Source: Asparagopsis taxiformis
Lineage: Eukaryota; Rhodophyta; Florideophyceae; Bonnemaisoniales; Bonnemaisoniaceae
Direction: 5' to 3'
NCBI GenBank assembly: GCA_030407315.1
Contig: JALQPE010000106.1
Coordinates: 56,264 to 120,263 of the forward strand
DNA: 64,000 nucleotides
The notes under the pieces were generated by a model. It made no database searches. It was not told the DNA's origin and saw nothing but the letters and a program-made list of their open reading frames with translations. Positions within the stretch are counted from its first letter, which is position 1. Every line of letters begins with the position of its first letter. Positions 38,366-57,252 of the stretch are shown here, one piece after another. Both the position numbers and the translations under genes were made by a program.

Positions 38366-38423
38366 GATAGAATACCGTGATCTCAATAAACGGCCGACGG
38401 CAAGGAAGAATCTCCTTCTAACA
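38216..38423 (+). repeat. 3' LTR of Copia-2 (208 bp)
   Basis: It shares both ends with the 5' LTR but lacks the 1.19-kb tandem block; its sequence joins at AGAA, a short repeat present at both edges of that block. It also has about 55 bp more than the 5' LTR near its start, between two copies of CAGGGCGCTAACTCA. Deletions between short direct repeats, one in each LTR, explain both differences. Confidence 0.85.
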
Positions 38424-38428
38424 GAAAC

Positions 38429-39423
38429 GAAACTCTGAGGTCATCCCGGGGGCATCTTGACATGCCGAGATCTCTGGCGTCTGGCACCGGCGAGATGTAT
38501 CTACACCAAGAAATTTAGTTGGTTAGGATGCAATTGCGCATCTTCATTGACCCGAACTATGAAACTATTTCATGGTAGTAAACCTACGACTTTAGCGTCC
38601 CAGGAGTAATCTTTGCAGAGTGTCAGAGCTCGAGTCATAAATGTTACCTTAGCTCAAATCAAATCAACGAATAAATCTATGATCCTCGTCAAACAGCAAC
38701 GTATTTTAGATTAACAGTTCTTACAAAATGGCGACACGGTACCCTCTATTACCTTTTCTGGGCGGTACCCTCGAGAGCTATTTCTCTTGGACGATATTGC
38801 AGCCTTGTAATGAGACTTATATTCATCAACCCACAGCACGAAATATCTTATCGATAAGTCACCAATACTTCTTACAAAGTTGTCGCTGAGCACCCGTGGG
38901 TAATCTCTATGGGCGTTCACGTCGGGTACAGCTGATCTCACGCGATAGCGCAGCATTACAAAGGAAGCGACAGATTCAATCTGTAAGATAAGTTATCAAT
39001 ATGTAATGGACGACAGGAAGTAGTGACACGCATAGGTTGGTCTGATGATGATATGCCCTCATATCTTCACTACTAACTAACAGGTTAGTTCAGACTGATA
39101 GAAAAATGTCAACCAAATGCTGACAATCGAAATCTGTTCAATCTCTAGAGCGGAAATTAATCATTCTGGCGAGATTCACTCCCACCACCACCCTTATCAT
39201 CATCCTTAGAAATTCTTCGATGTTTTGACCCTTCAAGTAATACCACAGAACGAACAAACATTTTTCAGACCCCTGCCATACGTATGAAGAATGAGAGCGA
39301 GCTCCCAATTCCATCTCATCCCATGATGTTTCAAACATTTGCCTCTCGATAGTAGAATACAATCGGATATAATCGGACGGCCTGTCCGTTCTACCTTCTT
39401 TCCAATCTCACTAAAATTATGCA
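38429..39423. other. Intergenic region, no gene seen
   Basis: Host flank to the right of Copia-2. Frames of 60-81 codons without domains; no palindromes or tRNA noticed. Confidence 0.45.
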
Positions 39424-39431
39424 TATATATA
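39424..39431 (+). promoter_or_regulatory. TATA box upstream of a hypothetical gene
   Basis: TATATATA lies 117 bases before the ATG at 39541, the same spacing as in the small-protein genes at 28.5 and 30.7 kb. Confidence 0.5.
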
Positions 39432-39540
39432 GCGGCCTCGCCTTTCGACCGGCCCCATCACAACCACCCATCGCAAAAACCCACAAAAACATATTCTCAC
39501 ATCGTCATGGAATCTTATTCCCCGCACAACTCTCTATCTG

Positions 39541-39945
39541 ATGGGAATCGCCGAAGGCAAGCTTATCGGTGGCATCTTGCGTCCTGGTTACACTACTGCC
39601 TGGATTGAGCTCTTCACCAACGAATACTTGACTTACGAACTCGACAGTGTCGCGCATATATGGCATGGAAATCAATCTGCTATAATGGCTTCCACGCCCA
39701 AAATACGGAACAGCATACTGGGCGTCTTCAAAGCTACTAATCTTGTAGATGCTGGCAAGTTTCAGACCCAACTTGATGAAGGCATCCACGAAACTCTGAA
39801 CTTCTTCTTCAAAACAAGTGATAAATATGCCATGGATCCCTATAAGAAAATGAATATGTACCCAGGATATACCTCAGATGAACCTATGATGTACGTGATA
39901 TCTCTACTGTGCGCAAGAGATACTTCGCTGATGTCCGAAAGATGA
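39541..39945 (+). CDS. Hypothetical protein (134 aa)
   Basis: A 134-codon frame with balanced composition, aromatic residues and no low complexity, so more gene-like than most short frames here. A TATA box stands at the usual distance. An earlier ATG at 39507 opens a 33-codon frame in another phase that overlaps the start and could act as an upstream ORF. There is no signal peptide, membrane segment or domain I recognise. Function unknown. Confidence 0.4.
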   Translation: MGIAEGKLIGGILRPGYTTAWIELFTNEYLTYELDSVAHIWHGNQSAIMASTPKIRNSILGVFKATNLVDAGKFQTQLDEGIHETLNFFFKTSDKYAMDPYKKMNMYPGYTSDEPMMYVISLLCARDTSLMSER

Positions 39946-40050
39946 GCGTAAAGACATCTCAGGTCTATCTTTGGTGTATCGCTATGCGGCCATCAGCTGA
40001 AGAGCGATTGTTCCTTATCGGTACATCAGAGGAACACCATGTATGTCATA

Positions 40051-40743
40051 TGTTCATCATACGGCCATCATTGGTACATCTTCGAGTCTTACTGGGGATT
40101 TTGCGTCCAAGGCATATCGGATGATCAAACCATTACAGAGCACATTACAGCAAATAGCTCATTCAGTATTTAACCATCGCCGCCGAGCCGGCAGTCACAG
40201 AATAAAGTTATGCAATGAGCCTCATCATCAACAGGTTATGGACCCAACCGCTAACGCGCTAACGATCTCACCCGCCCACCATCCCCCGACGCAGCTCGCG
40301 GCGACTAGCTAACGCAACCACTCCTCGCAACATTACTCCGCCAACATCTCGCGCAGCGCGCTGCGCGAATCGTTCACTCATCCGAAGCCGTCAACAAGCC
40401 CTCGACGAACACGTCTACGACCTCTACACTCAAACCTTAATCGAACTCGACCCATCCCACCCTTTTCCTATTACAATGACTGACTCCCCGCCCCCACCAA
40501 CACCCGCTCCATCCTCCTCACCCTCAACCCTTCCCAACGTTCCACCCCCTCTTCACTTCGATATTCCCCTCCTCACCCAACACAACCTCATTCAATGGTG
40601 TCACACAGTTGAGAGCCACGCCACCATCTATGATCTCATCCCCTATCTCCACGGGCCTGTGCCACCGGCCCCAACAGAAGCCAACGCGTTGCTTCATCAC
40701 CGACAACAGATCGCACTAACACGACTCCTCATACACAGCATGA
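40051..40743 (+). mobile_element. 5' remnant of a third copia-like retrotransposon
   Basis: A solo LTR-like end has the same layout as the other two elements: TATTTAA, then AATAAAG, then ATCAACA directly followed by GGTTATGGACCC at 40234, a variant half initiator tRNA-Met primer site. The 5' limit at TGTTCATC (40051) is a guess. After a leader, an ATG at 40476 begins a copia-type Gag. The similarity stops at about 40743, in the middle of Gag, and no remaining part was found elsewhere in the window. Confidence 0.65.
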
Positions 40744-40889
40744 GCAAAAATGGCTATTTTTCCAGCCCAGATTTTAGTTCGTACAGTGGTGAAAAACCAG
40801 GCCAGGTCGCTGGTTACAACGATCCCCAACCTCTGGATACGTCTGTGTTTTCGGAAGTGGACGCGGACGTCCAACTGAGAAGAAAGTAG
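40476..40889 (+). pseudogene. Truncated copia Gag
   Basis: Residues 1 to about 88 look like the N-terminus of a copia Gag: a Pro-rich start, then NLIQWCHTVESHATIYDL, a hydrophobic core and HRQQIALTRLLIHSM. From about residue 89 the composition changes abruptly to an unrelated tail that runs to a stop at 40889. The change marks the junction with the cassette to the right. Confidence 0.65.
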
Positions 40890-40986
40890 TAGAACAAGTA
40901 AGAAAAGTTTAATGGGTGCGGTGCCGACGCTACATTGGTAAAGAAGGGAATAACATGGTAGAGTGCTCTATTCCACGTGGAATTGT

Positions 40987-43749
40987 CTACGAGGTCTTGT
41001 TGAAATACTCAGGACCGTAGTCAAGGAGTAGTTCCTCATTGGGTGAGATAGGTCGAGTGGCAATTATTCTAACAGAAGAGTACTTCTGAAGCATATCGAC
41101 ATCAAGAATATCTTCATCGGGACACTCAAAATCAACGTTGGGCTCTCGGAAGTCAGCTTCCATGCTTTCGACGGAGCTGATCCTTTTCGGATCATTAATC
41201 ATCGCACAGACGCAGAATTCGAAAGGGATAAGGAAGATGGGAAGCTTTCGAGCCGAGGGAATGAGGCAGCTACGATCTGCGTGCTTGATTTGAAGGGCAT
41301 AATCACGAAAGCGGGCCGTGTTGAATGCAGTGGCATCACGTCCATGTGACGAGCGCCTGGAATTGTACAGATTACTGTACGCGAGAGACCCGTAATAGTA
41401 GCCCACCAAGTCTCCAACTTCGAAACCATCTCTTGAAAAAAGACCGTTGCCTGCGTTCGGAATAGAGGATGGAGCAACGTAAACTTTTTGGTACATTGCG
41501 TCCACGGCGAGGAGATAGAAAGATTCAACGGTGAGAAGGTTTGCCCTGACGGATTGAGCCCAGTTGTCCACTGGTGTGGACTGAAGGGCAGGGTAGTGCG
41601 AAGGGGACTTCCAAACTCCGCAGAGAACACTGGTGAGGTGTTCGGGGATTGTCGTAGACTGGGGAAGGTGTGCACCAGGCGGGGTGTTATTGCGAATCTC
41701 AGCACGATATTTTTGGACGTGTGCAGTTGCCAGACCCTGAACTTCGGAGGAGGAATGAGAGGCAAAATTTCCGTCGGAGAGCTGTTCGCAAAACGCGAGC
41801 TGTAGCTTGGGAAAGGAGACGTCGTGGCAGTATTGTTGCTGCTCACACCCGACGAAAGTGCGGTACTGACCGTCGTTCATGGTGAGGGCGGCTATACCGG
41901 TAGAGTATGTGCCCGCGAACATGTCAACGACGACATCACCGGGCTGTGAGAAACGAGCGATAATTTGCTTGAGAAGAGCACTTGTCTTCTGCTCTGGTCG
42001 GAGAGCCATCTTGCGCTTGGCGTTGCGAGGGTCCACGACGGTGATTCGTTCTTCATGAGACAAACGGGGGATGTTGTTGATTATGTTTGTCCAGGGTTGA
42101 AAGTTGGAACAAACGTAACCGTGTGGGGAATAGTTGACGAGTCCCCAGCCGGCGGTACCGGCGCCCAGCTTTGTAACGTGGACAACTACCTCAACCATAT
42201 TCATTAGACTTGTCGTCATGCGAAGGGGCGTGGAAGAGTAGTTGGTCCGGTGGCGGATGCAGAAGAGCGGCTGGTTGTCCACGGAGAACATCTGAGTGTG
42301 ATCCGGGTAAACCACTTCGCCCAGAGCCTGGGACCATTTGGGGAAAAGAACCGACGAGGTGAAAATGAGACCATGACCACCTGGACGGAGGATCCTGGAC
42401 ATCATTGCGACGCAATCTTCTATATCCCGGTCAGTGAGGATGTCATACTGTGAGATACGGAGACCAGCATTCCTCCTTGTGTTGTACGGCGGGTCAGTGA
42501 GAACGAGTTGGACGTTGCCTTCGAGAGGGGGTAGGGGATTGGAATCAGCAGCAGCGGCAGAAGCTGACTTGTATGCCTCTTCGAGACCGCGGAAGGAGCA
42601 ATTGAAGACGCGAGCGAAATTGTCCATTGTACTGGCAAGAGGGGGAGCGAAAGCGATGACGGGGTCATCTTCTTGGTCTTCGTCGAACGTCAAGACGTTT
42701 TCGTTGTCTCCTTGGTTGTCCTCGGCGGTTTGTGGAGCTGAAGGATCCAGACGAGTCTTCTTCGATGCGGGCTGACCGGGACGAGAAACGTCATCACCAT
42801 CCTGCTTCATCGCATCAGCAGTGCGTCTCGTGACGGAGCTGCTGGGCTCAACGAGATCTTCTGTGACAACATCCATATTTGTAGGAGTGAAGTCCTGCTG
42901 AGTACCTGGACGGAAAGCCGTGAGAGATCTCTCCACCGAGGCCAGAGCCGGGATTCGTGTGAACCGTTCTGTGTCGGAGGCCGGAGAGGACTCAGGTTTG
43001 CGATAGGAGTTGAGGAAGGCGACATCCTCTGGAGATTCCTTGAATAGGTCTTGTTCTGAAGCAATCATGAGAATTTGCTGAATGAAGTTTTGCGCCGCCA
43101 TACGCATTTGCTTGTCTTGTAGGTCGCTGCGCTGGAGCGCCCAGGTGCTGATCGCAGCAGGATACTGTGAACCGCGAATGGCTCCTCTGCCGTGGAGGAT
43201 GGTGAGGAGCTCCTGGAGCGGTGCATATTTCCGGTGGTGACTGGGGCGGGCATCTGTTATAGCGGTATACATGTTGACGTGTTCGTCGAACAGGATGTAA
43301 GGCTGCAGTAAGGTCTCTGCGTCTTGTACACCGAGGCAGGTGGCGAGATCATTCCAGGCGTCCACAATGGTGAGTACAGCGTAACCGACGTGCTGTGCAG
43401 CAGCTGTACTCGCCCTTTCGAAGCGGAAAGCCGATTTCCTTGATCTTTTCGTCCTGACTTTGGTCTTCTCGATGGAAACCAGGACGGTGAGGAAGAGGAC
43501 CTTTTCGAAGGTGGTTGCAGGACGAGAGGTATCCCAGGGATTTGGCTTCGAGGATCTTCGCTCAGCTGGACGGTAGAGGTGTTTGATCATGAAGGTGGGA
43601 ACGAGGGTCTGGCGAGTGAAAGGGGAGCGAGGGTAGTTTGTACGTTCCATCTGAACAGTGCTGTAGGTGAGGTCCATTTTCTGATGCACCTCGGTGAAGA
43701 GAGATGTGGATAGATCGAACAAGTCTCGTCCAGTTCCGCGAAGGAACAT
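40987..43749 (-). CDS. Beta-class DNA methyltransferase fused to a SET domain
   Basis: An intact 920-codon minus-strand frame from an ATG. Residues about 80-240 form a helical N-terminal domain that recurs alone at 58.5 kb. A polar linker has a basic patch PASKKTR near 327-333 (possible nuclear signal). Residues about 410-650 are a methyltransferase with the catalytic motif IV first (LTDPPYN, DPPY at 419-422) and the AdoMet motif I second (VVVDMFAGTYSTG, about 607-618), preceded by KTSALLKQIIARFSQPGD. That circular order defines the beta class typical of bacterial and phage enzymes, and DPPY is usual for N6-adenine. Residues about 757-917 are a SET lysine-methyltransferase domain: NAGNGLFS, VGYYYG, INDPK...PNVDFE (ND where NH is usual) and ISPNEELLLDYGPEYF. 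It is expected to act in the nucleus on DNA and histone or other protein. The frame upstream is open in phase back to a stop 34 bp before this ATG. Confidence 0.85.
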   Translation of the reverse strand: MFLRGTGRDLFDLSTSLFTEVHQKMDLTYSTVQMERTNYPRSPFTRQTLVPTFMIKHLYRPAERRSSKPNPWDTSRPATTFEKVLFLTVLVSIEKTKVRTKRSRKSAFRFERASTAAAQHVGYAVLTIVDAWNDLATCLGVQDAETLLQPYILFDEHVNMYTAITDARPSHHRKYAPLQELLTILHGRGAIRGSQYPAAISTWALQRSDLQDKQMRMAAQNFIQQILMIASEQDLFKESPEDVAFLNSYRKPESSPASDTERFTRIPALASVERSLTAFRPGTQQDFTPTNMDVVTEDLVEPSSSVTRRTADAMKQDGDDVSRPGQPASKKTRLDPSAPQTAEDNQGDNENVLTFDEDQEDDPVIAFAPPLASTMDNFARVFNCSFRGLEEAYKSASAAAADSNPLPPLEGNVQLVLTDPPYNTRRNAGLRISQYDILTDRDIEDCVAMMSRILRPGGHGLIFTSSVLFPKWSQALGEVVYPDHTQMFSVDNQPLFCIRHRTNYSSTPLRMTTSLMNMVEVVVHVTKLGAGTAGWGLVNYSPHGYVCSNFQPWTNIINNIPRLSHEERITVVDPRNAKRKMALRPEQKTSALLKQIIARFSQPGDVVVDMFAGTYSTGIAALTMNDGQYRTFVGCEQQQYCHDVSFPKLQLAFCEQLSDGNFASHSSSEVQGLATAHVQKYRAEIRNNTPPGAHLPQSTTIPEHLTSVLCGVWKSPSHYPALQSTPVDNWAQSVRANLLTVESFYLLAVDAMYQKVYVAPSSIPNAGNGLFSRDGFEVGDLVGYYYGSLAYSNLYNSRRSSHGRDATAFNTARFRDYALQIKHADRSCLIPSARKLPIFLIPFEFCVCAMINDPKRISSVESMEADFREPNVDFECPDEDILDVDMLQKYSSVRIIATRPISPNEELLLDYGPEYFNKTS

Positions 43750-43782
43750 TTCCCAGACTCTGGTGTCTATGGGGGAGACGGA

Positions 43783-44481
43783 TTAGTCTGCAGCAGCGGC
43801 AGTTAGATCCGCAGAGGTGTACGGGCGGAGAGACTGCGCGATGTTGTAAGTGTGTCTCAGGTAGGTCATTGAGAAGAAGTACAGAACAAACGCGGTTGCA
43901 TTGTCTTCAAGCACCTGGCACTGCATCTTGACCCAATCCAAGAGCTTGGCGAAAGAGCGGTCTCCCAAGGGCATATTGTCGGCCGAAAAGTCGGCCATGT
44001 GCCAGCAGTCGCGAAGGTAGAGCATGATAAGGACACATTCCTCCATTTCTAGCCCACGCCCAGCGCGGAAAATGTGGGCAAGGATGGCTAGTAAGGTCGT
44101 TACGTCGCTGGCATGCACGTCGTAGCGCATCTTGACATACGAAATGGAGTCTGTGGAGTGCTCTGAAGACCAGTAGCTCTCGCAGTCGAAGGCCCCGCCG
44201 AGTAGAACGACATCCTGTTCGGCTGTGAGGTACCCATGGATATTGGGTCCATCCCACTCCGGAGGGGGCTGCTGGACCCTGCGCGAAGGAGAAGAGGAAG
44301 ACCTGGGACTGCGAGAACGGGAAGTGCGATTGGTAGCACCTTCTACGCCATGAATGGCGGGCACGGAAATGACCCTGGCTGGGTCTATCCATAGAATGGT
44401 CCCGTTACCGTGTTCATGGTTGGGGAGAGGGGGAAGGGCACCCTCTGTGCTAACAACGGAGCCGTGCGTGTCTTGAGGCAT
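43783..44481 (-). CDS. Hypothetical protein (232 aa), probable N-terminal part of the methyltransferase-SET gene
   Basis: An ATG-initiated frame ending in TAA at 43783. It lies in the same phase as the methyltransferase-SET frame that begins 34 bp downstream; only the stop separates them. Its 5' leader is CT-rich, like those of the ParB-oxygenase genes, while the downstream frame has no leader of its own. The product has a Ser/Arg-rich stretch (residues about 50-70) and a helical C-terminal half with no family match. Two readings are possible: one gene of about 1160 codons with a nonsense mutation, or two genes in an operon-like pair. A short intron removing the stop was looked for; a GT...TAG candidate of 56 bases does not keep the frame. 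Confidence 0.6.
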   Translation of the reverse strand: MPQDTHGSVVSTEGALPPLPNHEHGNGTILWIDPARVISVPAIHGVEGATNRTSRSRSPRSSSSPSRRVQQPPPEWDGPNIHGYLTAEQDVVLLGGAFDCESYWSSEHSTDSISYVKMRYDVHASDVTTLLAILAHIFRAGRGLEMEECVLIMLYLRDCWHMADFSADNMPLGDRSFAKLLDWVKMQCQVLEDNATAFVLYFFSMTYLRHTYNIAQSLRPYTSADLTAAAAD

Positions 44482-45046
44482 AGTGTTGGTGAGAACGAAA
44501 AGTAGAGAGATGGGAGTGATAGAGAGAGGGATGGAATAGAGAGGACTTGTGGAGGGGAACGACGTGATGTTTTGTACCGAGTCGAAATAGACAAACCGTA
44601 CAAATCAGTTCCTTATATGCGTGAATAAACGCTGAAATTTAAAAAAATATTGATGAAATGACGTGCGACGAGGGGGATTAATTCGAACAATACCTGAAGA
44701 ACGGGGAACAGGGATTCTATTGCATTCGTACAAGCGTATGAGGGAGGGTGATTGCCGATGAAGCACATAGATTGGTAATAATATAGAGGGAAATGGACGA
44801 GTGAGTGCACCCATTTCGTGGCCTGCGATTTGAACGGGTTCAGAAAGGTGGCCATTACAGCTATTATACAAACTAAAGTTTTTTTACCAAATGCGGGTGT
44901 GAACGGGTTTGGCAGTTGGATGAAATGAGCGGTTTCGGATCGTGGTGGAGTATGTAACATGTGACACGCAATGCATCCTTGTAACTCCAAGCTGCAAAGC
45001 CGTTCAAACTGCCGCATGAGCGGTTTTGAGGGCTCTGGTAGCGAAT
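44482..45046. promoter_or_regulatory. Left half of the divergent promoter region
   Basis: This stretch separates the minus-strand methyltransferase-SET gene from the palindromic element. The first 80 bases are purine-rich on the plus strand (CT-rich in the gene sense). No ORF or TATA box stands out. It forms part of a 1.4-kb head-to-head intergenic region. Confidence 0.45.
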
Positions 45047-45280
45047 TGTCATACTGGACTTGCTCGAGCAATACTCAATCCGGGGTACGAACTAGTTCGG
45101 ATTGAGTATTGCTCGAGCAATTTCAGGCGGCCGTTCGGCCCGAAAATTGAAAATATTTTTTCAGAAATTATTTCCGCCCAATTTCGGCCATTTTGGGCGC
45201 CAGAAATTGCTCGAGCAATACTCAATCCGAACTAGTTCGTACTCCGGATTGAGTATTGCTCGAGCAAGTCCAGTATGACA
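45047..45280. repeat. Foldback/MITE-like element with nested palindromes
   Basis: A 234-bp unit bounded by TGTCATACTGGACTTGC and its reverse complement. The two arms, about 77 bp each, differ by one base. Each arm is itself a palindrome: CTCGAGCAATACTCAATCCG, then a short spacer with ACTAGT, then the reverse complement. The junctions contain the perfect 14-bp palindrome ATTGCTCGAGCAAT. The 80-bp centre holds CCGTTCGGCCCG and an AT-rich tract. AAT is present on both outer sides, so a 3-bp duplication is possible. Confidence 0.85.
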
Positions 45281-45630
45281 AATGTCACGGAAACGCCACC
45301 ACACCCCTCCAGCTGGCACCCTCGAGTAATAATACTAGTCTTCCAGGAATCATGTGCTGTCAGACATGCTCAGGGGCACCTTGCCTGGTGAAAAAACTGA
45401 ACCAACCATGCGTGGGCTACCGGGTGGGACCTGGTGACCAAGTCCATCAACGGGTAGAGCCAAGACCGCTTATTAGTTTGAATTCAAAATGTCAATGGTC
45501 ATCCATGCTCCCACTTCATTTTGAATTTGGAAGGGTCAGTATCGATAAGCGGGTTTGAGGTATGGTTCCAGCAAGGCTGTTTGAGAGAGATGACGAAATC
45601 GCTGTTTCCGCACGATTTGGAGGGGTCGAC

Positions 45631-45704
45631 TTGCTCGAGCAATACTCAATCCGGAGTAAGAATTAGTTCGGATTGAGTCTTGCTCGAGCAATTTTGGTAT
45701 GACA
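45631..45704. repeat. Single palindromic arm of the same repeat family
   Basis: One arm with CTTGCTCGAGCAATACTCAA, spacer AGTAAGAATTAGTT, and the inverted copy with one change (GAGTCTTGCTCGAGC). It ends TTTTGGTATGACA, matching the terminal CCAGTATGACA of the element at 45047-45280. It stands 217 bp upstream of the ATG of the first ParB-oxygenase gene. Confidence 0.8.
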
Positions 45705-45920
45705 AATAATGATGGATATATCATAAAAACCGTTCATTTTCATTTTTCCCTATTAAACGAGGTATGCCAAAGCCTGACTACTGGTACCGTACTACGCGTG
45801 TCACCGCAACCTCAGCTTCCGCTCTTCTCACTTCTCACTCTCTCTCACTCACTCTCTCTTTCTCCATTTCCATCTCTATCTCCCGCTCTCCCCCCCACCA
45901 ACCACACCACCCAAACCAAA

Positions 45921-48900
45921 ATGCGTAACGCCAGGAAAGTTTTCGATAAACTTGAGCTGTCCATGTACACCATGGAAAATGGCACGCTGTCGGTCAATGA
46001 CATTTTCGTCTCCGACCAGCAATCTCGCGAAGTGGACATGGCCCACGTCGACGCCATGTACCAAGAGATGCTCCGCGATGGGTACCCTAAGCACGCGCTG
46101 GGTCTCATCACAGTCGGAAAAATCTCGCGCACCGTCGGTGGAAACACCATTGCGCGCTACGAGATCTGCGACGGGCTTCACCGCCACGCTGTCGGGAAAA
46201 GGGCCGTCGCCTCTGACGACGATAGCGAGAAGGCGACTATTCTCCGCGACACGTTCCTTGCCCTCCCGGTTAGCATCGTGTCTCGCAAGGACAACAAGGA
46301 CCTAGTCACCGAGGACTTGTTGTTCCTTAGCCAGGCGCTCAATGCCAAGGCACACAGGGTCCTTCCCACCAGGCCTCGCGACTTTGTACACACCGCTATC
46401 AGCATGTACAACGCTGTCGGTGGGAAGTTTGCCGGTGTGGAGCTCAAGACGGCGGCCGCATTCGCATCGTACTTGGAACACCGCTTGTTCGGTTCAGTCC
46501 ACAAGGCGAAGGCATTGAGCTACGCCACGGTTTCCCTGAAGATGATGTCAAGCCCGTTGACGTACGAGGCGTTCAAGGTCATTGGCAGTGTTAACGACGA
46601 CGTTGCACTCGTCATTCTCAAGAACAGCGCCTTCACCAGTGCGCATGACCGAGCCTCTCTCCTGATGCTCGACTGCCTCATGCTTCGCAAGAAGTACGCT
46701 TCGAGGCATCAGGCCTTTGGACGAATCAAGCTTCTCGTGAGGGAGTACCTCCTCAACATCCGGGCGTATTACACCTGTATGCGCAATCTGGCCGACCGGT
46801 TCGAGAAGGACATCGCTGAGCTGTACAGCATCCCTGACCTCCGCGTCAGTGGCAATGCCTCATTCTCCACTGTGGACGTCGTTTACGGGTTTGTCACCGA
46901 GTTTGAGCACCCTGACGCTCGTTCCCCGTCGGCCCAGAATGCCCGCATGGAGTCGTTCGAAAAACTCTTCAACGACCGGTACAAGCCTGTACCGAAACCC
47001 CCAAGGCGCCCCACTCCCCCCGCCCCCTCATCTTCTTCGGCACAGGATCCTGTCGACAATCCCGCCTCTCGCCAACCTGCTGGTGCAGCCTCTGGCTCCG
47101 CCGCACAAGGTGATGCGGATGTCAACATGGACAACAGCTCGGACGAAGAAGAGCCGCTCCCTCTTGGCCCATCTCTCGCCACCCCTCCTGCCACCTCTTC
47201 GCCCTCACATACTCCCAATCCTCTTGCGACGCCTCCTGTTCGCACAAAGTCGCCCACCTCGCGTCGCACGAAGCAGGCTGGGCGCAGGAGGCGTTCGGAC
47301 TCCGGTCCGGATTTCACCCGCAATGTGAAACGCAAGAGTGATTTCGCACCCGCTTCCGTCACGTCACCGGGCTCTGCAAACAGATTCAGAAGCACCCCGG
47401 AGGGCAGCGGTCAGCGAGGGCGAGGAAGTGGCCAGGCAGGGCGTCGTCAAAGCTCCCGTCTCATGGCTCGCATCCAACGCGAGCAGGGGAAGGCCGCACA
47501 GGTATCCAGTGATGAATACTCTGATGCTGGTAGTGACGACGTCGAGATTATCGAAATCGAGTCAGTAGTCGAGGTTTCGGATGATGAGGGAAGTGACGTG
47601 GCCATGGATGATGTCCCTGAGACGTACGGTGCATTCCAAGTCCACCGATACGAGGATGCCCAGCAGGCTGTCCCAGCTGCAGTTCTCAGAAATGTCCCCG
47701 CCGGTACTGCAAAGGAAAGAGTGCAATCGGCGTCTTCTCTGCTCCACCCGGAGCATAGAAGCGGGTTCTACCTGACGGACACGGACATCATGGCCATCAA
47801 CGGGTCCATTATGTCTGCAGTTGGCGGCAATGCATCCGATCGAACATGAGTGTTCAAGCGAGCACGGGGCTTCATGGACTCCGTTGGGTATGTTTGTCTA
47901 CAGGACATATTCTCCCAGGGCATCGTCAAGGAAGCTGTCGACACACTTTGCCGGTCGTTCGCTGACAAGTTCACCGACAAGGCTGAAGGTGTCTGGGGAA
48001 AAATCCTGAACAAGGAGCCTTCAGGGTTGGTCGACGGTGACGGGAACAAAATCAAGCCCCATCCGTACGACGGGAAGAATCATGACCGCTACATGACTTC
48101 CTGTGCCTCAGTCACCGACATGCTGGAGAACAAAGACCCCGAGACCTTCAAGGCCAAGCTCATTGTCGATGTTGCACTGGCAATGGTCGGAGACATGCTG
48201 TTCGTCCAGTACGAGCTAGACAGTGCTCGCAAATGCCAACCGGGTACAAAGCTCTCCTTTGCCAAGTCAGGACTGCGCCTTCTCCTGACTGGCGAGGACT
48301 GCAAACGGCAGGTGCCGCATCTGGACTTCATGTATCCAGGTCCGGACAAGAAGGACAAGAAGAAGTATTGGGGAACGCCAATGCCGAACCCAAACTTCGC
48401 CATCCTGGCGACTGGTGCAGTCAGCTCTTGCCTCCTCGTTCGCCCGCGTTCGCACGTCTACCTGAACGGGCCTACAAGTATGGCTTCACAGCTATTGCCA
48501 GCTCTGAACGCTAAGGTCGTTCACATCCCGCCGTTCTCCGTCATGTTCAGCCGTGGTGATTTGGAACACGCTGGTCCTGGATGGTCCGACCACAGGGAGA
48601 ATACCAAGGAATTCGACGGTATCGACCTGGAATCGGCGGGTGGAGAGCGTGACCCCCGTAATATCTATGGACATTACCTCCGCATTCACACCATGGCAAT
48701 TCGTGAAGGGGAGTCGATGGTCAACGATCTCGTGTTCACACCTGGTGGACCTGCACCGTACATCGTGCCGTACGACTCCGCCTACGTTCCGCCAAGTTCG
48801 TCAGACAGCGAGGAGGAGAGCGACGACGGCAGCCAAGATGGTGGTGAACAGGGCAACCAGGACGGGAGCGAAGATGGCAGCCCGCCGGGGAGCCCCAGTA

Positions 48901-48950
48901 GTAGTAGCAATTCGTCTTCTGATAGTGAAGAAACAGAAAGTGAAGAGTAA
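45921..48950 (+). CDS. ParB-like / Fe(II)-2OG oxygenase-like fusion, copy 1, with one in-frame TGA
   Basis: The ATG at 45921 follows a CT-rich leader ending CCAAACCAAA. Codons 1-642 end in TGA (47847-47849). The same phase then continues without a shift to 48950, and the paralogue reads through the matching place. Residues about 25-150 are a ParB/sulfiredoxin-like domain with REVDMAHVD, LGLITVGKI and the nucleotide-site motif EICDGLHRHAVGKR (81-94). A disordered acidic and basic middle follows, with a SUMO-interaction-like patch EIIEIESVVEVSDDE. The C-terminal part is a double-stranded-beta-helix oxygenase-like domain. Its iron ligands would be H and D of VPHLDF (nt about 48318-48326) and H of GDLEHAGPGW (48567), with a 2-oxoglutarate Arg in HYLRIH (48681). 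The tail is acidic. This would be a nuclear DNA-binding oxidase, possibly removing or modifying methyl groups. If the TGA is real, the oxygenase half is lost. Confidence 0.75.
47847..47849 (+). other. In-frame TGA interrupting ParB-oxygenase copy 1
   Basis: TGA stands in phase between the conserved linker (SGFYLTDTDIMAINGS) and the oxygenase part (FKRARGFMDSVGYV). In copy 2 the corresponding place is QQEIFFERARG without a stop. One C-to-T change from CGA would create it. Confidence 0.75.
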
Positions 48951-49208
48951 GTTTAGTTCTAGAGTACTTAGCATGCAGCTAGAACTAACTCTTCTAACTC
49001 ATAAACATCTCACTATTGAACAGCATCTCCATACCTACTAAGCTAGCAGTACTATAGGCCTATACTACGCTATACCTTGGGGTATTACCCCTATTGCCTA
49101 ATACTTCTACTCCTAGTTAACGGACGAGGACAGCCTTGGTGTAGCAGAGGCAGCAGCAGTACTACTCGGGGAGACCCATATCTGCTTCAGAGCCTCCTGG
49201 GGCAGACT
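48951..49208. other. 3' flank of ParB-oxygenase copy 1, no gene seen
   Basis: This gap runs from the stop at 48950 to the border of the next palindromic element. It has short stop-rich AT stretches near 49040-49080 and no frame of interest. Confidence 0.4.
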
Positions 49209-49582
49209 TGTCATACTGGACTTGCTCGAGCAATACTCAATCCGGGGTACGGATTAGTTCGGATTGAGTATTGCTCGAGCAATTTCTCGTGGCCAAAATG
49301 GCCGAAATTTGTCCGAAATAATTTCTGAAAAAATATTCTCAGTTGTTTTGGCCGCCAGAAATTACTCGAGCAATACTCAATCCGGGGTACGAATTAGTTC
49401 GGATTGAGTATTGCTCGAGCAATTTCTGGCGGACACTTGGCCCGCGAAAATTGAAAATATTTTTTCAGAAATTATTTCCGCCCAATTTCGGCCATTTTGG
49501 CGGCCAGAAATTGCTCGAGCAATACTCAATCCGAACTAATTCGTACCCCGGATTGAGTATTGCTCGAGGAAGCCCGGTAAGT
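49209..49582. repeat. Composite of three palindromic arms, same repeat family
   Basis: Begins with the border TGTCATACTGGACTTGC and contains three full palindromic arms, centred at about 49251, 49393 and 49540. Each is built from CTCGAGCAATACTCAATCCG and its inverse. The 80-bp inter-arm segments (CGTGGCCAAAATGGCC; GAAAATATTTTTTCAG) resemble the centre of the 45047 element. The right border is eroded (GCTCGAGGAAGCCCGGTAAG). It looks like two fused copies of the 234-bp unit sharing a middle arm. Confidence 0.8.
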
Positions 49583-49803
49583 ATAGCTGTGATTAATGCG
49601 TGCCTGACACGTGACATGTCCCTCAATGCCCTAAATGAAATACGGCCAATTTTATTTTTAAAAGCACAGGTCCTGTCACCATCTCCCGGCATTCAACCTT
49701 TGCTCTGTACAGCAAAGCTCTTGCTCCGTTACATTTCTCTCTCTCCATCTCCCTCTCTCCACCTCTCCGCCCTTTTACGTTCTCACTCTTCCAACCACGC
49801 ACA

Positions 49804-52800
49804 ATGGCCGATAAGCAACCTGAGCACAACTTCGAAGAACTGGTCTGGAGCAGTTACTCCTTTCGCGGCGAGCGCATGTCCATCGAGGACACCCATGTCG
49901 CTGCGCAGACCTCTCGCGAGGTTGACGACGCTCACGTGGATCGCATGCTCCAGGAAATGCTCGTCGATGGGTACACGGAAAAAGGCCTCGGCCAAATCAC
50001 TGTGGCCGAGCGCATGCACAACGGCAATAAGCGTTTCGAAATTGCTGATGGACTGCATCGTCGCACTGTTGGTATGCGTATCCTCGCGTCCACGGATGTC
50101 TCCGAAAAGACAAAGGCTCTGCAGAGGCAGTTTCGCAACATGCCCATCCAGATTGTCAGCCGTAACGATGGCTTGGAAATGACTCTCGAAGATCTCCTCT
50201 TCATCAGTCAGCGAATGAACTCCAAGTCTCATCGCATTCTTCCCACACGACCTCGAGACCGCGTCCACAGCGCCATTAGCTTGTACAACGCTGCTGTCAA
50301 TGGACGCATGGGTACGGCAAAGCTGAAAACGGCTGCTACGTTCGGGATGTTCCTTCACTCGCGCCACTTTCATATGGCAATGAAGTTATCTCAGGCCATT
50401 TCATACGCATCCGTCGCGTTGAAAATGATGCACAGCCCATTGACCTATGCAGCGTTCAAGACCTTCAGTGCCGACGACGAGGAAGGCGTTGCTTTCAGCG
50501 TACTGAAAAACTCCGTGTTCACTCGAGCTACGGATAGAGCTTCGCTGCTCATCCTTACCTGTCTCAAGCTCCGCAAGGACAATCCCTCCAAACATCTCGC
50601 TTTCGGGCAGTACAAGGATCTCAAGGTCAAGGACTACCTGCAGAACATCTGTGATTATTCCGCGGTCATGCGCACTGCTGCAGAACAGCTCAATGTAGAT
50701 ATTGCCACCATTCACGATCTCCCTGATCTTTTTGTTCGCAATGGCGAACAGGTTTCCACAACTACCTACGTTTACGAAAAGGTTACAATGTTCGAGAAAG
50801 GTCTCGTGCCTAGAACGAAGGATGCTCAACAGCTCCGTGACCAACGATTCAAACAGGCCATTATCGACCGTTTGAATCCGCCCACATCTCCCAAGCCTAC
50901 CCTACCGTCCCAGCAGGATGACATTCCATCACCCTCCCCTGCCACACCTATCGAGGGCCTCGAGCCAGCCCCTCTCCCTGCTACCACTAATACCCCTCCA
51001 ACGCAAGGTCCAGTCATTGATGACGATGCAGCCAGTGATAGGCTGACAAAACACCATCCCGCGGACGACAACGACAGCGCTCATTCCATTGAGCAGAAAC
51101 TCCGTCGCGATACAGCTGTTCACGATGGAATATCTCCTGAAAGGGATGAAAACATTCCAAACTTCGAGAGCGCTTTCAGTGGTTCTGCAGACCATAATCA
51201 ACATGGCTCCGATGAAGATAGCCCTTCCTCCAGTGAAGATGCTATCATACCGGACGTGCGAGATACTACTGTCGAAGGTGACCCCAGCAGTCCCTTCCAG
51301 TGTGCACTCGGGGAACACTGCCGTCTCCCTTTATCCAAACCAGCTCACAAGTGCACAACGTGCAACTCTGTTGCTGTTCACAACCTCTGTGATTATCCAA
51401 GAGTGCACCACCTCATCCCAGTGAAGTACATCAACAATGGTGATAGAGACATGCTCATGGTTTGCTCTCGCAAATGTTACGATGGCAAAAATGAGGGAGA
51501 CCTTCCTTCCTTTGCCCCACCTCCCGGTGTTTCCGTTCAGGAAGCATGGAAAGGAGATCCTTTCGACCCTTTCAAACCCAGCACTGCCAAGTCTCCTCTC
51601 AAGTCCACTCCGAAAAAGAATACCCCAAGGAGCACTACAGCCGGGAAATCCCCCATCCTCCCCACTCCGAAGGGAAGCAAGTCTGCTGCTGCTTCAACGG
51701 AACCCCCTTCCACGCCTAGAATCGTGGCGGAGAGTGCCCATTCCCCGGTTGCCGAGAAGGTTGCGGAAATGCCATCCACTGCTCCTGTGCGTAAAAGTCC
51801 CCGCATGAAGAGGAACGTTACCTCTCTTTACACTCCGGAACGCAATGTCAAGCAAAGGATTTCTAGCTCCGCTTCCAAGAAGGTCCCGAAAACAAAAACA
51901 CTCAAGGGCTCGGAAACCAATTCTGCATTTCCAGCACCGTTCTCTGGCGTCCCCCACCCTAGGAACGAGGACCACCAGCAAGACGTCCCTCCTGCCGTGC
52001 TGGATAAAGTTTCCGCTCAGAAGGCCGCCCGCAACGTTCACCTCGCTTCGTCTCTACTACCAAACAACCATAGAAGCGGTTTCTATCTCACCGTGGAGAA
52101 GATTCAGACCATCAAGGACTCTATTGCTATCGCCGCGGCGAGTGAGCCTCTACAGCAGGAAATCTTCTTTGAACGCGCAAGAGGTTCCATTGAGTCCCTC
52201 GGTTATGCTGTTCTTGATGATATCCTCAGTCAGCGCATTGTCAAGGCTTCCGTCGATGTTCTCTGCAAGTCTTTTGCAGACATGTTCACCAATCAAAGCA
52301 AGAACTCTTGGATGCTCATACCCAATATTGGCACCTCGACCGTCGACACTTCCACCAGTGCAAACGAGCGTCGCTACATGACTCCCTGTTCGGCCGTCAC
52401 CGACGATCTGGAGAATTGCAACGAGCCGCTTTTCTCAGATAAGCTCATTGTGGACGTCGCTTTGGCTGTTGTCGGACATCAGCTCCATCTGCGCTCTGCT
52501 ATATCCAGCCTGCGTGAATATACTGAAGGCTCGGAGTTGAAGTTTCAAGAGTCCGGACTTCGACTTCTTCTTACAGGCAATGGCACTAAACGCCAGGCCT
52601 CCCACTTCGCCTTCAATCCCACTACCCCCGGCAAATTGTGGAAGAACAATGTTGAGGCAAACCCTGAACCGAGCTATGTCTTCATTGCCACCGGGGCTGT
52701 TGGGTCTCCAGTGCTCCTTCGCCCTCGCTCACATGTATACGTCAATTGTGCCCCGCGCTATGTCTCCAAAATTTGGCATCTTCTTCCTCCTCGGGTTGTA

Positions 52801-53045
52801 TGGATCCCCCCTTCTCCGTCATGGTCATGCGCGGTGACATCGAACATGCTGGTCCCGGTTGGGATGACTACGCTCTCATGAGAACCATGCATCCCAATGA
52901 TGGTCAGCTCTCTACGTACGGACAGTATGTCCGTATTCAGTCTCTAGCTGTTCGCGAGGGTGACATTGTTCCTGAAGAAATGCAATGCATCGACAACTCC
53001 CCCAAACGCTACAAATTTCCACATGACGACGTCCAAGTCATCTAA
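49804..53045 (+). CDS. ParB-like / zinc finger / Fe(II)-2OG oxygenase-like fusion, copy 2, frameshifted at the end
   Basis: The ATG follows a CT-rich leader, as in copy 1. The ParB-like domain has REVDDAHVD, LGQITVAERM and EIADGLHRRTVG (79-90). The middle differs from copy 1 by a Cys/His module, residues about 500-560 (CALGEHC, HKCTTCN, HNLCDY, MVCSRKC), probably zinc-binding and PHD/ZZ-like. The shared linker ASSLL...HRSGFYLT is followed by the oxygenase-like domain. Here the first iron-ligand motif reads HFA (52603-52611, His934 and Ala936) instead of H-x-D. A one-base shift in a C6 run near 52810 moves the rest (GDIEHAGPGW, YGQYVRIQSL) into another frame, ending at 53045. The distal His and the Arg are kept there. 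Loss of the Asp means no demethylase-type activity, or halogenase-like chemistry. The full length is about 1079 residues. Confidence 0.75.
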
Positions 53046-53273
53046 ACCTCCATCAAATGGTGTCCCACCAACCTCCTTTCCATTCTCTCTACCATCATCT
53101 TCATCATGTTCTGCAGGGTTTCTCTCTATTCTTCCTCTACCTTTCCTTGCTCCTAGCTAGTCTTAATGCATGTCTTAAACTGATTGCCACACTTCTTTTT
53201 CATTTCCACTTCTCTCATTCCATCTCCGTCCATCGCTGGTGTTCTCATTTCAGTCTCCACTCTTCGCCCTGCA

Positions 53274-53451
53274 AAGAGAATTGGTCGAGCAAATCTCAAT
53301 CCGGCATTGTGTGGTTCCCGGATTGAGTATTGCTCGACCAATTTCAGTATGACAATACTTCATTTCAGTATGACAACTACAAATTGGTCGAGCAATACTC
53401 AATCCGGGAACCACGCAATGCCGGATTGAGATTTGCTCGACCAATTCTCTT
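53274..53451. repeat. 71-bp inverted repeat with a 36-bp spacer
   Basis: Arms 53274-53344 and 53381-53451 are reverse complements with one mismatch. Each arm carries a variant of the family palindrome, with GGTCGAGCAA in place of GCTCGAGCAA: ATTGGTCGAGCAAATCTCAA ... GAGTATTGCTCGACCAAT. The spacer holds the 15-bp direct repeat ATTTCAGTATGACAA twice (53341 and 53362), whose CAGTATGACA matches the border of the 45047 element. It lies between copy 2 and the next gene and would form a strong hairpin. Confidence 0.88.
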
Positions 53452-53569
53452 CCCAGTGTAACGGTCATCCTAGAAGTAAACTGCCTGCCTCGTCGTCCCC
53501 TCCACTACATTCTGCTCCGAGCATATTCCGTCGGTTCACTCCTTTCACTCGCAAGACGTTCTCTCCCTC

Positions 53570-55213
53570 ATGGCTCCTCCCAACAATGCTGAACTCCTCC
53601 GCGAGATTGAAGCGCGATTCTCCGCTCTTCTTCAACAGTTCCTCGCTCCCATCCAGGATGAACTGGCCGCTCTACGTTACCTTTCTTCCCTCCTCGCCGG
53701 TACCAACACTGTTCCAGCCGCCAATGCTGAGGACCCATGTAGGAATGTTCATATTGCCTGTCAGCTTGTGAACAGCATTTTCAGCAACAAAGGAACCGTC
53801 TCTCGCTTCGTGGCTCACTGCACGGTCAAGGAGTTGGCCAGGACTGGCGCTCCGTTCGAGACCAGCAATTCTAGTTCCTCCCATCCTTCCGACTCCTGTC
53901 CAACTCTGATCCTCGCTGCACTGTCCTTTTCCCAATTCTCTTCCACTACCGCAGACTCCGCAAAGTCCAAGCGTTCCCTCATTTCAAGCCCCGTAGGGAA
54001 GAAGCACGTCTATTTGAAGCGCTCAATCGTCGGTTCCGCTTTCTTCTCAATGGCCAACGACCAGATCGTTAGGTGGAAGGACTCGACATCACGTAAAGCC
54101 GGCAACGTAGACCCTGGAGAAGAGGATGACCTCAACATGTCGACAGCCATCCGCAGCTACCCCCTCCGCAACGCCACCGTTGTAACTCAGGATAAGCCCG
54201 CCTGGGTGCGCCTCCCGCCTCATGCTCTTCGTGAAGCCTTTGCACTGGCAATGCCCACCGACGAAGACAACATCGTTGTGCCTCCTTCAAAGCGGAAGCG
54301 ACTATCTACCGGCACCGATGGAGACTCCATCCGAGCTCCCCCCGCCTCTTCCTCGACATCCAGAAATTCCGCTATCGCTGCTGCAGATACTGGACCCGTT
54401 ATGTTGGCTACGTCCGCGCTGCGTGCCCTTACAAAGTTCTTTAACAACTCTAGAAAAACTTTGAAACAAGAACTTCTCAAATCATGTTTCTTTCTTCTTC
54501 ACCAAGATTTCGACGCCGTTATTCTCGACAACTCCCCAGATAGTAATCAAGCATCGTTCATGACGTTTAATAACGACTTTCCCCTTCGTTGCAATGATTC
54601 TATTCCTACCACTGCTAGGGCGTACGGGAACAGTGCAGAAGCAAACAAGGTATATGAAGAAAACGACAGAATCTTCAATACTTTCACACTCGACTGTCAG
54701 GAGCTCATTATTCAGGTCATCTATACAGTTTCTGTCAAAGACTCTGTGGCCGACTCCTCTCCTTCTCGTTCCTCACAGCAAAGAAAAGCTCTGACCAAAT
54801 TTTCCTTCCTCACCACTGCAATGGTACTACTTACACGTTTCTGCCAATGCCCTCAACGCCATCTTCTCTGCTACAATTCGGAAGCTATTCTTGCCTCTTA
54901 CAAGATAGCTATATGCTTAAAATCACTATTCTGCACAATGATAGAATCCGATGAATATGGTAGAGATGGCTTCCCGCTTGTTGGAAGTCACGGATGCCTT
55001 GACCTCCGCGACTATATTCCTGGTGGCGAACTACTCTCCAGCTTCATTCGAAAGAAGAAGAATATATCCGCCCACGAATATGATGCAATCAAATTCGACA
55101 GAACAGATATTCGTTCCATAGCAACTGAGGACCTCGATCCTCCCTGCAACGTTACAGAAGACTATCAACCTTTGCAGGAGGATGACGAGCTTGGAATATC
55201 CCTCGTCATGTGA
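53570..55213 (+). CDS. Orphan protein of the cassette (547 aa)
   Basis: An intact frame from an ATG after a CT-rich leader (CGTTCTCTCCCTCATGG), as for the ParB-oxygenase genes. The N-terminus is predicted helical (ELLREIEARFSALLQQFLAPIQDELAALRYLSSLL). A basic nuclear-signal-like motif PPSKRKRLS lies at about residues 239-247. The second half is hydrophobic-helical (SALRALTKFFNNS, LLKSCFFLLHQDF, FLTTAMVLLTRFCQC) with no transmembrane pattern. I recognise no domain. Its leader, position and uninterrupted frame suggest a working member of the cassette, perhaps the mobilising or packaging factor, but nothing in the sequence shows such activity. It converges on the minus-strand gene with about 120 bp between stops. 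Confidence 0.7.
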   Translation: MAPPNNAELLREIEARFSALLQQFLAPIQDELAALRYLSSLLAGTNTVPAANAEDPCRNVHIACQLVNSIFSNKGTVSRFVAHCTVKELARTGAPFETSNSSSSHPSDSCPTLILAALSFSQFSSTTADSAKSKRSLISSPVGKKHVYLKRSIVGSAFFSMANDQIVRWKDSTSRKAGNVDPGEEDDLNMSTAIRSYPLRNATVVTQDKPAWVRLPPHALREAFALAMPTDEDNIVVPPSKRKRLSTGTDGDSIRAPPASSSTSRNSAIAAADTGPVMLATSALRALTKFFNNSRKTLKQELLKSCFFLLHQDFDAVILDNSPDSNQASFMTFNNDFPLRCNDSIPTTARAYGNSAEANKVYEENDRIFNTFTLDCQELIIQVIYTVSVKDSVADSSPSRSSQQRKALTKFSFLTTAMVLLTRFCQCPQRHLLCYNSEAILASYKIAICLKSLFCTMIESDEYGRDGFPLVGSHGCLDLRDYIPGGELLSSFIRKKKNISAHEYDAIKFDRTDIRSIATEDLDPPCNVTEDYQPLQEDDELGISLVM

Positions 55214-55333
55214 CTTCTCCTTTCCCCTTATACCTAGTAGCTTCAAACTATAATGTAAACTGTAGTCTTCTTTGAAACCTTCAAACCTTTACCGTTCTCC
55301 TTTCATATTCTACTCATCCATTTGTTTATCATT

Positions 55334-57055
55334 TTATATCAGGTACTTCTCGGCTAGCTTTTCCATTCTTTCCGCCCCTACTGCCCTGTTCACTACTTCT
55401 TCGGACATCAGTCTGGCTATCCTTCGCGGTTCTTCAACACCATGGATTAAAACATATGGTACGTAAACTCGCAAACAACCCCACTGCCCCTCTCCATTCC
55501 TTCCACGTTTCCTCTGCCCAACAGGCTCCCATTCCACCCGGAAACTCTTCACAACTCCGTTCCTTCGAGTTCTTCCTCCATTGTCACATACACTGCGAAC
55601 CTCTGAGTGAATTGGGCATGCCCCCTCCCGACTCTCAACCTCCATCTTCGAAACGTACTGTCCCTGCACTATTGTGCGATCCCGTCGAACTGCACACTGT
55701 GCAGATTGTTCCCTCCGCAACGCACAGAACATGCTGCTCCCGATGCTCATCGATACCGGTCCATTCTCACTATTCCCTCCATCATCCTCACAAAGTGCCG
55801 TCCCTAATATTTGCAGGCTGCTCTGCTTCCAAAAGCTCTCTCCATTCGCTTCTTCTTCATCTTTCCCGTCAGTAGCAGACACGTTACGGGTGTGCACAAG
55901 CATTTCGCTGCGCTGCAATAAAGATATTCCTAGCATGTCGGATAGCACAGCAAAGTTGCTGCAAACCACTGTGATCGCTTCGTTTCCAGTTCCATGCACT
56001 GCCGAGTGTAAACTAGGATACACATCGTACCGACCTTCACCGTATAGGTCTATTGTTCCCTTCAGTAACTCTCTGAATATCCCGCTGCACAATGCAGCAG
56101 GAACTTGTATCGGAGAGGTCACCAGATTTCCGCACATCATAGCTCCGTCCACCATACTTGTAGAGAACACGCGACTAGAGCTTCCAGTCGGTATTCGTAC
56201 AGCCTGTTCTACCATCTTCTCCACTCCTCTCCGCATCATCGACAACAGCATCAGACCAACATTATCGACGATGCTGCTGGAACAATTAAACTTCCCAGCG
56301 TCCAACAACGACATTGCATCCTCCAGAACTCGCACCCTGGTCTCCAGCTGCCTCTCATTCGACGTCCTCTGTGCCCTCACTTCTCCATCTTCGGTTTTAA
56401 CACGCTTGTAACCCGGCTCCCCAGCTTTCCGACTATCCTCAGCGCTACTGTAGCTGGACTCCTCCGACAGTTCAATCTCCTCCCGCTCATCGTGACCGTC
56501 AACGTTTCCGACAGAGCATTTTCCTCTGCGCCACGCAGTCGGCTGCTGTCCGGCGCACATAATTCTCCGCCCGAGTAGGAACGTTCCATCATCATACCCC
56601 ACGCAGGGATATCCCTTTTCGGGCATTGCATCGTACAGAATCCTGCCTTCAGCGATGATCTCTTCCTCGAATTTCGGCTGCACGCTACCCGAAAATCTCC
56701 AAGACCTTACATCCGAAAACGCCACCTTTCTCCCACCTTGTATAATATGGATCATGATCACCGACGCGCCGTCTCCATCCTTAGCGTCCCCAGATTCCAC
56801 GACCCCGGGCACGTACACTCCACTTTCCCTCTCCACGTCTACGAGGGCTCCTGGCGGAGGAGCTCCCGTGCATACTGGAAACTCTTCGGGGAGGCTCAGT
56901 GACACCACCTTCCCACCACATCCCCACACCAGACACCTCAAACCACACTTCGATCCTAGACCCGACTTTCGGCAGGTCTTCGATACCGAGTACCCTCTCT
57001 TGGGCACGGTTCGCAATCGCTTTTTCGCTCTTGCACCTAATCCTCGCTGACTCAC
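55334..57055 (-). CDS. Orphan protein of the cassette (up to 573 aa)
   Basis: A long open minus-strand frame without a recognised domain. At 57055 the frame begins with GTG, not ATG. An ATG at 57068 lies in another phase and is followed at once by GTGAGT, which resembles a 5' splice site, so the real N-terminus may be an upstream exon. Visible features are a basic start, an acidic Ser-rich stretch (EEIELSEESSYSSAEDS), a short coiled-coil candidate (NERQLETRVRVLEDAM) and a basic patch GQRKRGRNGEG. The opposite strand is also open in patches, but codon quality is better on this strand. It is placed tail to tail with the 547-aa orphan. Function unknown; it could be mis-stranded. Confidence 0.5.
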   Translation of the reverse strand: MSQRGLGARAKKRLRTVPKRGYSVSKTCRKSGLGSKCGLRCLVWGCGGKVVSLSLPEEFPVCTGAPPPGALVDVERESGVYVPGVVESGDAKDGDGASVIMIHIIQGGRKVAFSDVRSWRFSGSVQPKFEEEIIAEGRILYDAMPEKGYPCVGYDDGTFLLGRRIMCAGQQPTAWRRGKCSVGNVDGHDEREEIELSEESSYSSAEDSRKAGEPGYKRVKTEDGEVRAQRTSNERQLETRVRVLEDAMSLLDAGKFNCSSSIVDNVGLMLLSMMRRGVEKMVEQAVRIPTGSSSRVFSTSMVDGAMMCGNLVTSPIQVPAALCSGIFRELLKGTIDLYGEGRYDVYPSLHSAVHGTGNEAITVVCSNFAVLSDMLGISLLQRSEMLVHTRNVSATDGKDEEEANGESFWKQSSLQILGTALCEDDGGNSENGPVSMSIGSSMFCALRREQSAQCAVRRDRTIVQGQYVSKMEVESREGACPIHSEVRSVCDNGGRTRRNGVVKSFRVEWEPVGQRKRGRNGEGQWGCLRVYVPYVLIHGVEEPRRIARLMSEEVVNRAVGAERMEKLAEKYLI

Positions 57056-57252
57056 GCCTGTTCGTCATGATTCCCCTTCCAAATTAGTTCTAATGCTAGA
57101 GAAGACGACAATTTAACAATGCAGTTGATGCAATACCAACTTTTCACTACGGCGATACAGCCTCATATATGTGTACATAATCATGATGAATCATCTACTC
57201 CGTAACGTCATTACGTTTACCACGAAATGGCATGACTCGCTGATCGATTCTT

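Follow-up and report, generated by a model that had tools for sequence, protein, structure and literature searches.

Which kind of genetic unit brings a predicted DNA methyltransferase, a SET domain and two oxygenase-like proteins together in a red alga, and to what might these enzymes be addressed? The question is raised by a stretch of 64,000 nucleotides from Asparagopsis taxiformis (contig JALQPE010000106.1), hereafter the window, in which an earlier, sequence-only reading took positions 40987-53045 as a eukaryotic mobile cassette. The block is real, but it is only a slice of the true unit, which spans 40734-58470. This unit is a copy, with an internal deletion, of a giant CA...TG DNA transposon whose ends read 5'-CACAG...CTGTG-3' and include a terminal inverted repeat of 14 bp; the transposon is present in many copies in this one eukaryotic genome, and the block holds its accessory genes.

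Ends, copies and transposase candidate of the element

The mobile nature of the cassette was borne out by its ends, which were searched in a single host assembly of 141 Mb; all genome counts given here are lower bounds. The 25-base pattern beginning with CACAGCATGAGCAAAAATGG at the left end occurs at 90 exact places and the right-end 21-mer TCAAAAATTGCTCATGCTGTG at 92, with no occurrence of either reversed-pattern control, and for the left end in the window the chance expectation is 0.02 at up to three mismatches. In six aligned copies the boundary at CACAGCATGAGCAAAAATGG is sharp, with the same first base and different DNA in front. Target duplications were read at both ends of ten complete elements picked from the lists of end matches, and seven of them (C305, C895, C1910, C23, C420, C729 and C951) carry a 2-bp duplication, a number reached or exceeded in 4 of 100,000 shufflings of the end pairings (mean 1.2 matches). 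A 3-bp duplication was rejected, since it fits none of the ten whereas 2 bp fits seven. The transposon is recently active.

Three full copies measure ~24.5-26 kb, and elements of 19.8 kb and of ~6 kb also exist; complete elements of ~6.1-6.6 kb with the same ends were seen on C23, C420, C729, C951, C1616 and C2882. The internal deletion of the window copy was read against C398, in which positions 130-235 match window 40734-40839 and positions from 6872 onward match the window from 40874 onward. This copy may be rearranged, because its two flanks differ from each other. Ten methyltransferase-containing copies out of 42, fetched with their flanks, are collinear with the window throughout the block or through much of it and match it at 91-99% in their main pieces, which argues that the block is not a chance arrangement; a one-off gene cluster was rejected on the same ground. 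A virus was also rejected, as viral contigs hold no confirmed relatives of the partner proteins and the methyltransferase matches there are short and distant. The three enzyme genes are all interrupted in the window (Table 1), and intact copies stand elsewhere in the genome. The C2322 contig resembles window 37889-50802 at 99.4% over 12.9 kb and is maybe a duplicate or the other haplotype; since its partner genes are open, the lesions in the window might have arisen recently, be allelic or stem from errors in the assembly. At 61748-61767 on the plus strand stands another CACAG-type terminus, which differs from the left end of the element by three mismatches and perhaps belongs to a related family.

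The full copy C2178 contains a minus-strand open reading frame (ORF) of 1326 amino acids (aa), situated in the part that is deleted from the window copy, which is the transposase candidate and has 43 matches in the genome. It carries a C(2)C motif at 700 and an H(3)H motif at 837, both of which are present in seven of the ten fetched copies (all but C2279, C1608 and C2322), and its D/D/E residues were assigned by eye. In CMCT transposases, according to PMC12730594, C(2)C and H(3-4)H stand between the second D and the last E, and the clade mostly has CA..TG termini and target-site duplications of 2-5 bp. The CACAG...CTGTG ends with their 14-bp repeat and the 2-bp duplications of the seven complete copies agree with this description, and from these features the element looks like a transposon of the EnSpm/CMCT kind. 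A second, divergent stretch sharing the candidate's DYPA...MGHIS..PC..C pattern was noticed in C398, in the L040 region or its neighbours L032-L033.

The methyltransferase-SET protein and its partners

Domain models and a structure model bear out the sequence-only reading of the minus-strand DPPY protein as a methyltransferase-SET fusion; the methyltransferase part is a predicted DNA-modifying enzyme of the N6/N4 beta class. In the window the methyltransferase domain matches PF01555 with an E-value of 4.6e-13, DPPY precedes the S-adenosylmethionine (AdoMet) FxG motif, and the modelled methyltransferase gave a CcrM-like fold in the fold comparison, by which the SET and ParB parts were barely tested because the methyltransferase domain filled the fold list. 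The SET match (PF00856) lies below the cut-off of 22.4 bits in the window (21.1 bits, E 4e-4) and above it in the intact relative P0001 (22.6 bits); among the nine relatives scanned it is over the cut-off in six (P0001, P0002, P0003, P0005, P0006 and P0008), under it in P0009, and absent in P0010 and in P0004, which ends early. The SET end motif ELxxDY is present as EELLLDYG. SET domains usually read NHS at a position where this protein reads IND.

The methyltransferase has 42 genome matches on 38 contigs, ten of them full-length and open. At the N-terminus of one relative, P0009, we found a ParB match (phrog_1033, E 2e-5; phrog_4715, E 0.003), and tblastn of P0009 in phages returned 143 records, with the ten listed matches confined to the methyltransferase part. 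A second methyltransferase lineage with DPPY has at least 121 matches in the genome and open frames of up to ~1150 aa, and a fragment of it (58471-59110, plus strand) lies directly at the element's right end.

Starting head to head with the methyltransferase gene are two partner proteins, 42% identical paralogues; the predicted arrangement thus held, whereas the predicted identity as ParB-like and 2-oxoglutarate (2OG) oxygenase-like proteins did not go beyond motifs. The N-terminus of the partners contains an SREVD...DGLHR motif that reads by eye as ParB-like. Their C-terminus contains dGYvvLedil, PHLDF, RPRSH and RGDLEHAGPGW, then a later R, a set which we take to resemble that of PhyH-type Fe/2OG oxygenases, and by these motifs the oxygenase-like domain leans to PhyH. 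In the alignment A5 of six sequences, H157, H240 and R278 are found in all six and D159 in five, partner 2 reading HFA; the same HFA in place of HxD is seen in P0011, an intact relative of partner 2, and in each of five copies with the site seen. The run of C at which partner 2 changes frame counts six in the window, C1584 and C2279, and seven in C2178. At least 113 genome matches to the C-terminal domain were found in all, including divergent relatives at 42-47%.

Pfam models of TET/JBP and AlkB gave no match to the partners up to E 10, HMMER being weak at such distance. Sequence searches of the PDB other than that with profile A5 (see below) gave chance-like matches or none, and tblastn of the oxygenase-like domain in phages gave no match. 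AlphaFold2, run on partner 1 with three sequences, reached a predicted local distance difference test (pLDDT) score of 30 with no usable fold, probably because homologues were too few; among the folds that the earlier reading expected, that of the methyltransferase was recovered and that of partner 1 was not.

Homologues in the same order, which were also expected, do occur within the alga's own genome. Partner 1 lies head to head within 8 kb in 24 of the 42 methyltransferase rows (23 of the 38 contigs), and both partners are present in 18 rows (17 contigs). Partner 2 stands behind partner 1 on the same strand in 33 of the 41 contigs with partner 1 at ≥60% identity. These counts cover the 44 partner-1 rows at that identity and 52 partner-2 rows, with 69 partner-1 rows at 42-47% left out, and contig ends and fragments make up part of the misses; partner 1 is lost in C2279.

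The ratio of non-synonymous to synonymous substitution rates (dN/dS) was computed between the window and C2178. For the methyltransferase-SET gene it was 0.17 (methyltransferase 0.12, SET 0.16, N-terminal half 0.18, linker 0.38), for partner 1 it was 0.11 in the N-terminal (ParB) part, 0.19 in the C-terminal (2OG) part and 0.62 in the linker, and for ORF5 (Table 1) 0.26; partner 2, compared between two copies that both change frame, gave 0.15 in the N-terminal part, 0.43 in the middle and 0.21 in the 2OG part. The enzyme genes are shown to have evolved under purifying selection, and from the low ratios we infer that they were functional while the copies diverged. These values bear on the explanation that the block is passenger cargo, made of captured genes with no function for the element. 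The many broken copies would suit it, and so would the giant families with only non-transposase genes that are likened to Pack-MULEs in PMC12477816; ratios of 0.11-0.21 in the catalytic and DNA-binding parts against 0.38-0.62 in the linkers, and the divergent families of the same proteins within the same genome, speak for use, and we hold mere cargo to be very improbable.

Table 1. Features of the transposon copy in the window, in order of position.
Feature	Position	Strand	Remarks
Left end CACAGCATGAGCAAAAATGG	40734-40753	+	First 14 bases are the terminal inverted repeat
Internal-deletion scar	40840-40873		~6.6 kb with the transposase candidate of full copies missing here
Predicted beta-class DNA methyltransferase fused to SET	40987-44481	-	Interrupted by in-frame TAA; 1164 aa in intact relatives
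Three palindromes	45073-45107, 45220-45254, 45644-45678		Divergent promoter space
Partner 1	45921-48950	+	ParB-like N-terminus, linker, PhyH/2OG-like C-terminus with HxD, H, R (all by motif); in-frame TGA, open in other copies
Three palindromes	49235-49269, 49375-49409, 49524-49558		In front of partner 2
Partner 2	49804-53042	+	Paralogue of partner 1, HFA for HxD; frame changes near 52806 at C run
Two palindromes	53294-53328, 53397-53431		In front of ORF5
ORF5, 547 aa	53570-55213	+	Open in full copy C2178
ORF6, up to 573 aa	55334-57055	-	Homologous DNA in C2178 and C2279
One palindrome	57277-57311		In front of ORF6
Right end TCAAAAATTGCTCATGCTGTG	58450-58470	+	Boundary seen in C2178 and C2279

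Palindromes before the element genes and their possible use

Every palindrome site has two arms, built around CTCAATCCG...CGGATTGAG, and farther out TTGCTCGAGCAA or a variant close to it; at part of the sites the arms include TTGCTCGAGCAA itself, a perfect 12-bp palindrome. That palindromes of one family lie between the blocks had been seen correctly, and all of them are in spaces before genes. The full copy C2178 has 14, in groups of 3, 3, 3, 3 and 2, all within five spaces 5' of genes: before the transposase candidate, in the divergent space between methyltransferase and partner 1, and before partner 2, ORF5 and ORF6 (in C2178 the start of ORF6 is that suggested by homology to the frame in the window). 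The genes and the 3'-only spaces of this copy contain no palindrome. A stringent pattern was found at 426 places in the genome and at none in the control, for which reason chance palindromes were rejected. Of these 426 places 50 were listed: 46 of them are less than 8 kb away from an end or a gene of the element, and four (on C74 and C284) lie >20 kb from any element feature found. The short element of C23 has two palindromes with another core. As for the two remaining genes, ORF5 and ORF6 had no match, or chance-level ones, in Pfam, PHROG and NCBIfam scans, and the longest open piece of ORF6 is 325 aa in C2178 and 299 aa in C2279.

The explanation that we prefer, and consider somewhat probable, is that the block is an accessory part of the mobile element with self-addressed, predicted marking enzymes. 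The methyltransferase-SET protein would place N6-methyladenine or N4-methylcytosine onto the element's DNA and may also methylate lysines in chromatin proteins close by. The putative address would be the palindromes that precede the element genes, bound by the ParB-like ends of the partners and by a putative, decayed ParB-like end of the methyltransferase; partner 1 would then oxidise a mark at the palindromes, either a methylated base or a methylated lysine, and partner 2, without one predicted iron ligand, may be a paralogue that binds or regulates. In sum the element's promoters would be kept in a self-controlled state (anti-silencing, self-regulation), or its DNA would be marked for the transposase. 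If this is true, a single protein of a mobile element couples DNA methylation to histone methylation and is accompanied by two oxygenase-like proteins and by an address of the element's own. One could then test directly if transposons of eukaryotes set, read and remove their chromatin marks themselves, and how prokaryotic base-modification genes came to be part of eukaryotic parasites; with so many near-identical copies, mapping of modifications and tests of expression are within reach. A more specific form, in which the palindromes would serve as parS-like sites where the ParB-like domains load and spread, recruiting a dual DNA/histone writer and an oxidiser, appears to us rather unlikely; it would mean that a eukaryotic mobile element has its own linked DNA-plus-histone epigenetic circuit, built on a phage-type ParB-methyltransferase.

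The distribution of the palindromes also bears on another target, namely the host genome, on which the accessory proteins could act by chromatin reprogramming or counter-silencing while the palindromes would be only promoter or transcription-factor sites. That a single protein unites SET with a DNA methyltransferase suggests a writer of wide reach, palindromes common to the element's genes are what one host or element transcription factor would lead us to expect, and the four distant palindromes among the 50 listed point the same way. We nevertheless regard action on the host as doubtful, in view of the 46 listed palindromes near the element's ends or genes and of the ParB-like motifs, which, together with an earlier proposal for ParB-methyltransferase transposon proteins, favour self-recognition. 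It is also conceivable that the palindromes are transposition or replication signals, such as transposase-binding sites or hairpins, unrelated to the accessory proteins. In CACTA elements subterminal repeats are bound by an element protein, and the perfect 12-bp palindrome in the arms of part of the sites would fit such a use; here, however, the palindromes lie deep inside the element, before genes and not at its ends, and we give this explanation little credit.

Several results weigh against the self-addressed system and the assignments behind it. The ParB-like and 2OG-like parts of the partners, read from motifs, had no match in Pfam, PHROGs or NCBIfam, and profile searches of the genome with PF02195 (ParB_N) and PF05721 (PhyH) found none in the element. 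In the PDB, profile A5 retrieved four entries, the best being a transcriptional regulator (E 0.033) and the best oxygenase an ectoine hydroxylase (E 0.48), and profile comparison (hhalign, with tiny profiles) gave no support for the partner domains; 'ParB-like' and '2OG-like' are thus to be taken as leads, since neither domain was confirmed by any model. A ParB match was obtained in one of the four methyltransferase-family proteins scanned (P0009, and not P0001, P0004 or P0005), and only two of the 52 matches to partner 2 have an open frame from end to end. Pfam gave no match to the transposase candidate, whether with the whole ORF (to E 1) or with a 386-aa piece of it (to E 10), and none of the 36 genome matches to the TNP2 model PF02992 is on a contig with one of the candidate's 43. 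A matching target duplication is absent in three of the ten complete copies (C2127, C1616 and C2882) and in the window copy, and many copies, including that of the window, are broken or truncated.

Elsewhere in the window, two minus-strand frames at 435-4756 contain a TIR domain (PF13676, E 6e-14), with weaker WD40, AAA and NB-ARC matches below the cut-off, and this stretch is a predicted APAF1/NLR-like gene or remnant. A Ty1/copia retrotransposon with an open polyprotein of 1352 aa lies at 23485-27543 (plus strand), and a second copia-like element, open in two frames, at 33832-38365 (plus strand).

Relation to described transposons and methyltransferases

The sequence-only reading had named no described system with exactly this set. 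Among the titles and abstract starts found, we saw no N6/N4 methyltransferase-SET fusion with oxygenase-like partners; the literature search was incomplete, and absence from print is thus not established. ParB-methyltransferase, SET and TET/JBP genes in transposons are each already in print (PMC12477816, PMC12730594). There may also be overlap with red-algal work cited in PMC12477816 (Bostrychia, Curr Biol 2025).

The closest parallel in that article is the giant transposon Sola1-1_Ec32 of Ectocarpus, which carries a ParB-methyltransferase of 1104 aa (PMC12477816). It has in common with the present element an N6/N4-type DNA methyltransferase of ~1100 aa inside a DNA transposon of the 20-kb class; in the Asparagopsis element, by contrast, the enzyme carries a SET domain, a pair of oxygenase-like paralogues accompanies it, and there are palindromes before the genes. 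Eleven lineages of DNA transposons in fungi, EnSpm among them, are described as carrying TET/JBP genes (PMC12730594). These too are DNA transposons, some with CAC..GTG termini, with a dioxygenase gene aboard, whereas the oxygenase-like domain found here matches no known dioxygenase model and stands alongside DNA and lysine methyltransferases. The same article mentions oomycete HarbingerS and MuDR transposons with SET genes (PMC12730594), which likewise are transposon-borne SET lysine methyltransferases; in the Asparagopsis element the SET domain is fused to a DNA methyltransferase, which may set it apart from them.

Outside eukaryotic transposons, the viral and bacterial ParB-N6/N4 methyltransferases may be compared. 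In the methyltransferase found with the family on a viral contig (L002, IMG/VR; phrog_67 for the methyltransferase part), a ParB_N-like stretch, with a match of E 1e-4 under the curated cut-off, is followed by a beta-class methyltransferase; L002 differs in its length of 455 aa, in having no SET match and in its prokaryotic virus contig. Set beside these systems, the fusion of a methyltransferase to SET, together with two oxygenase-like proteins and common palindromes, looks like a new combination.

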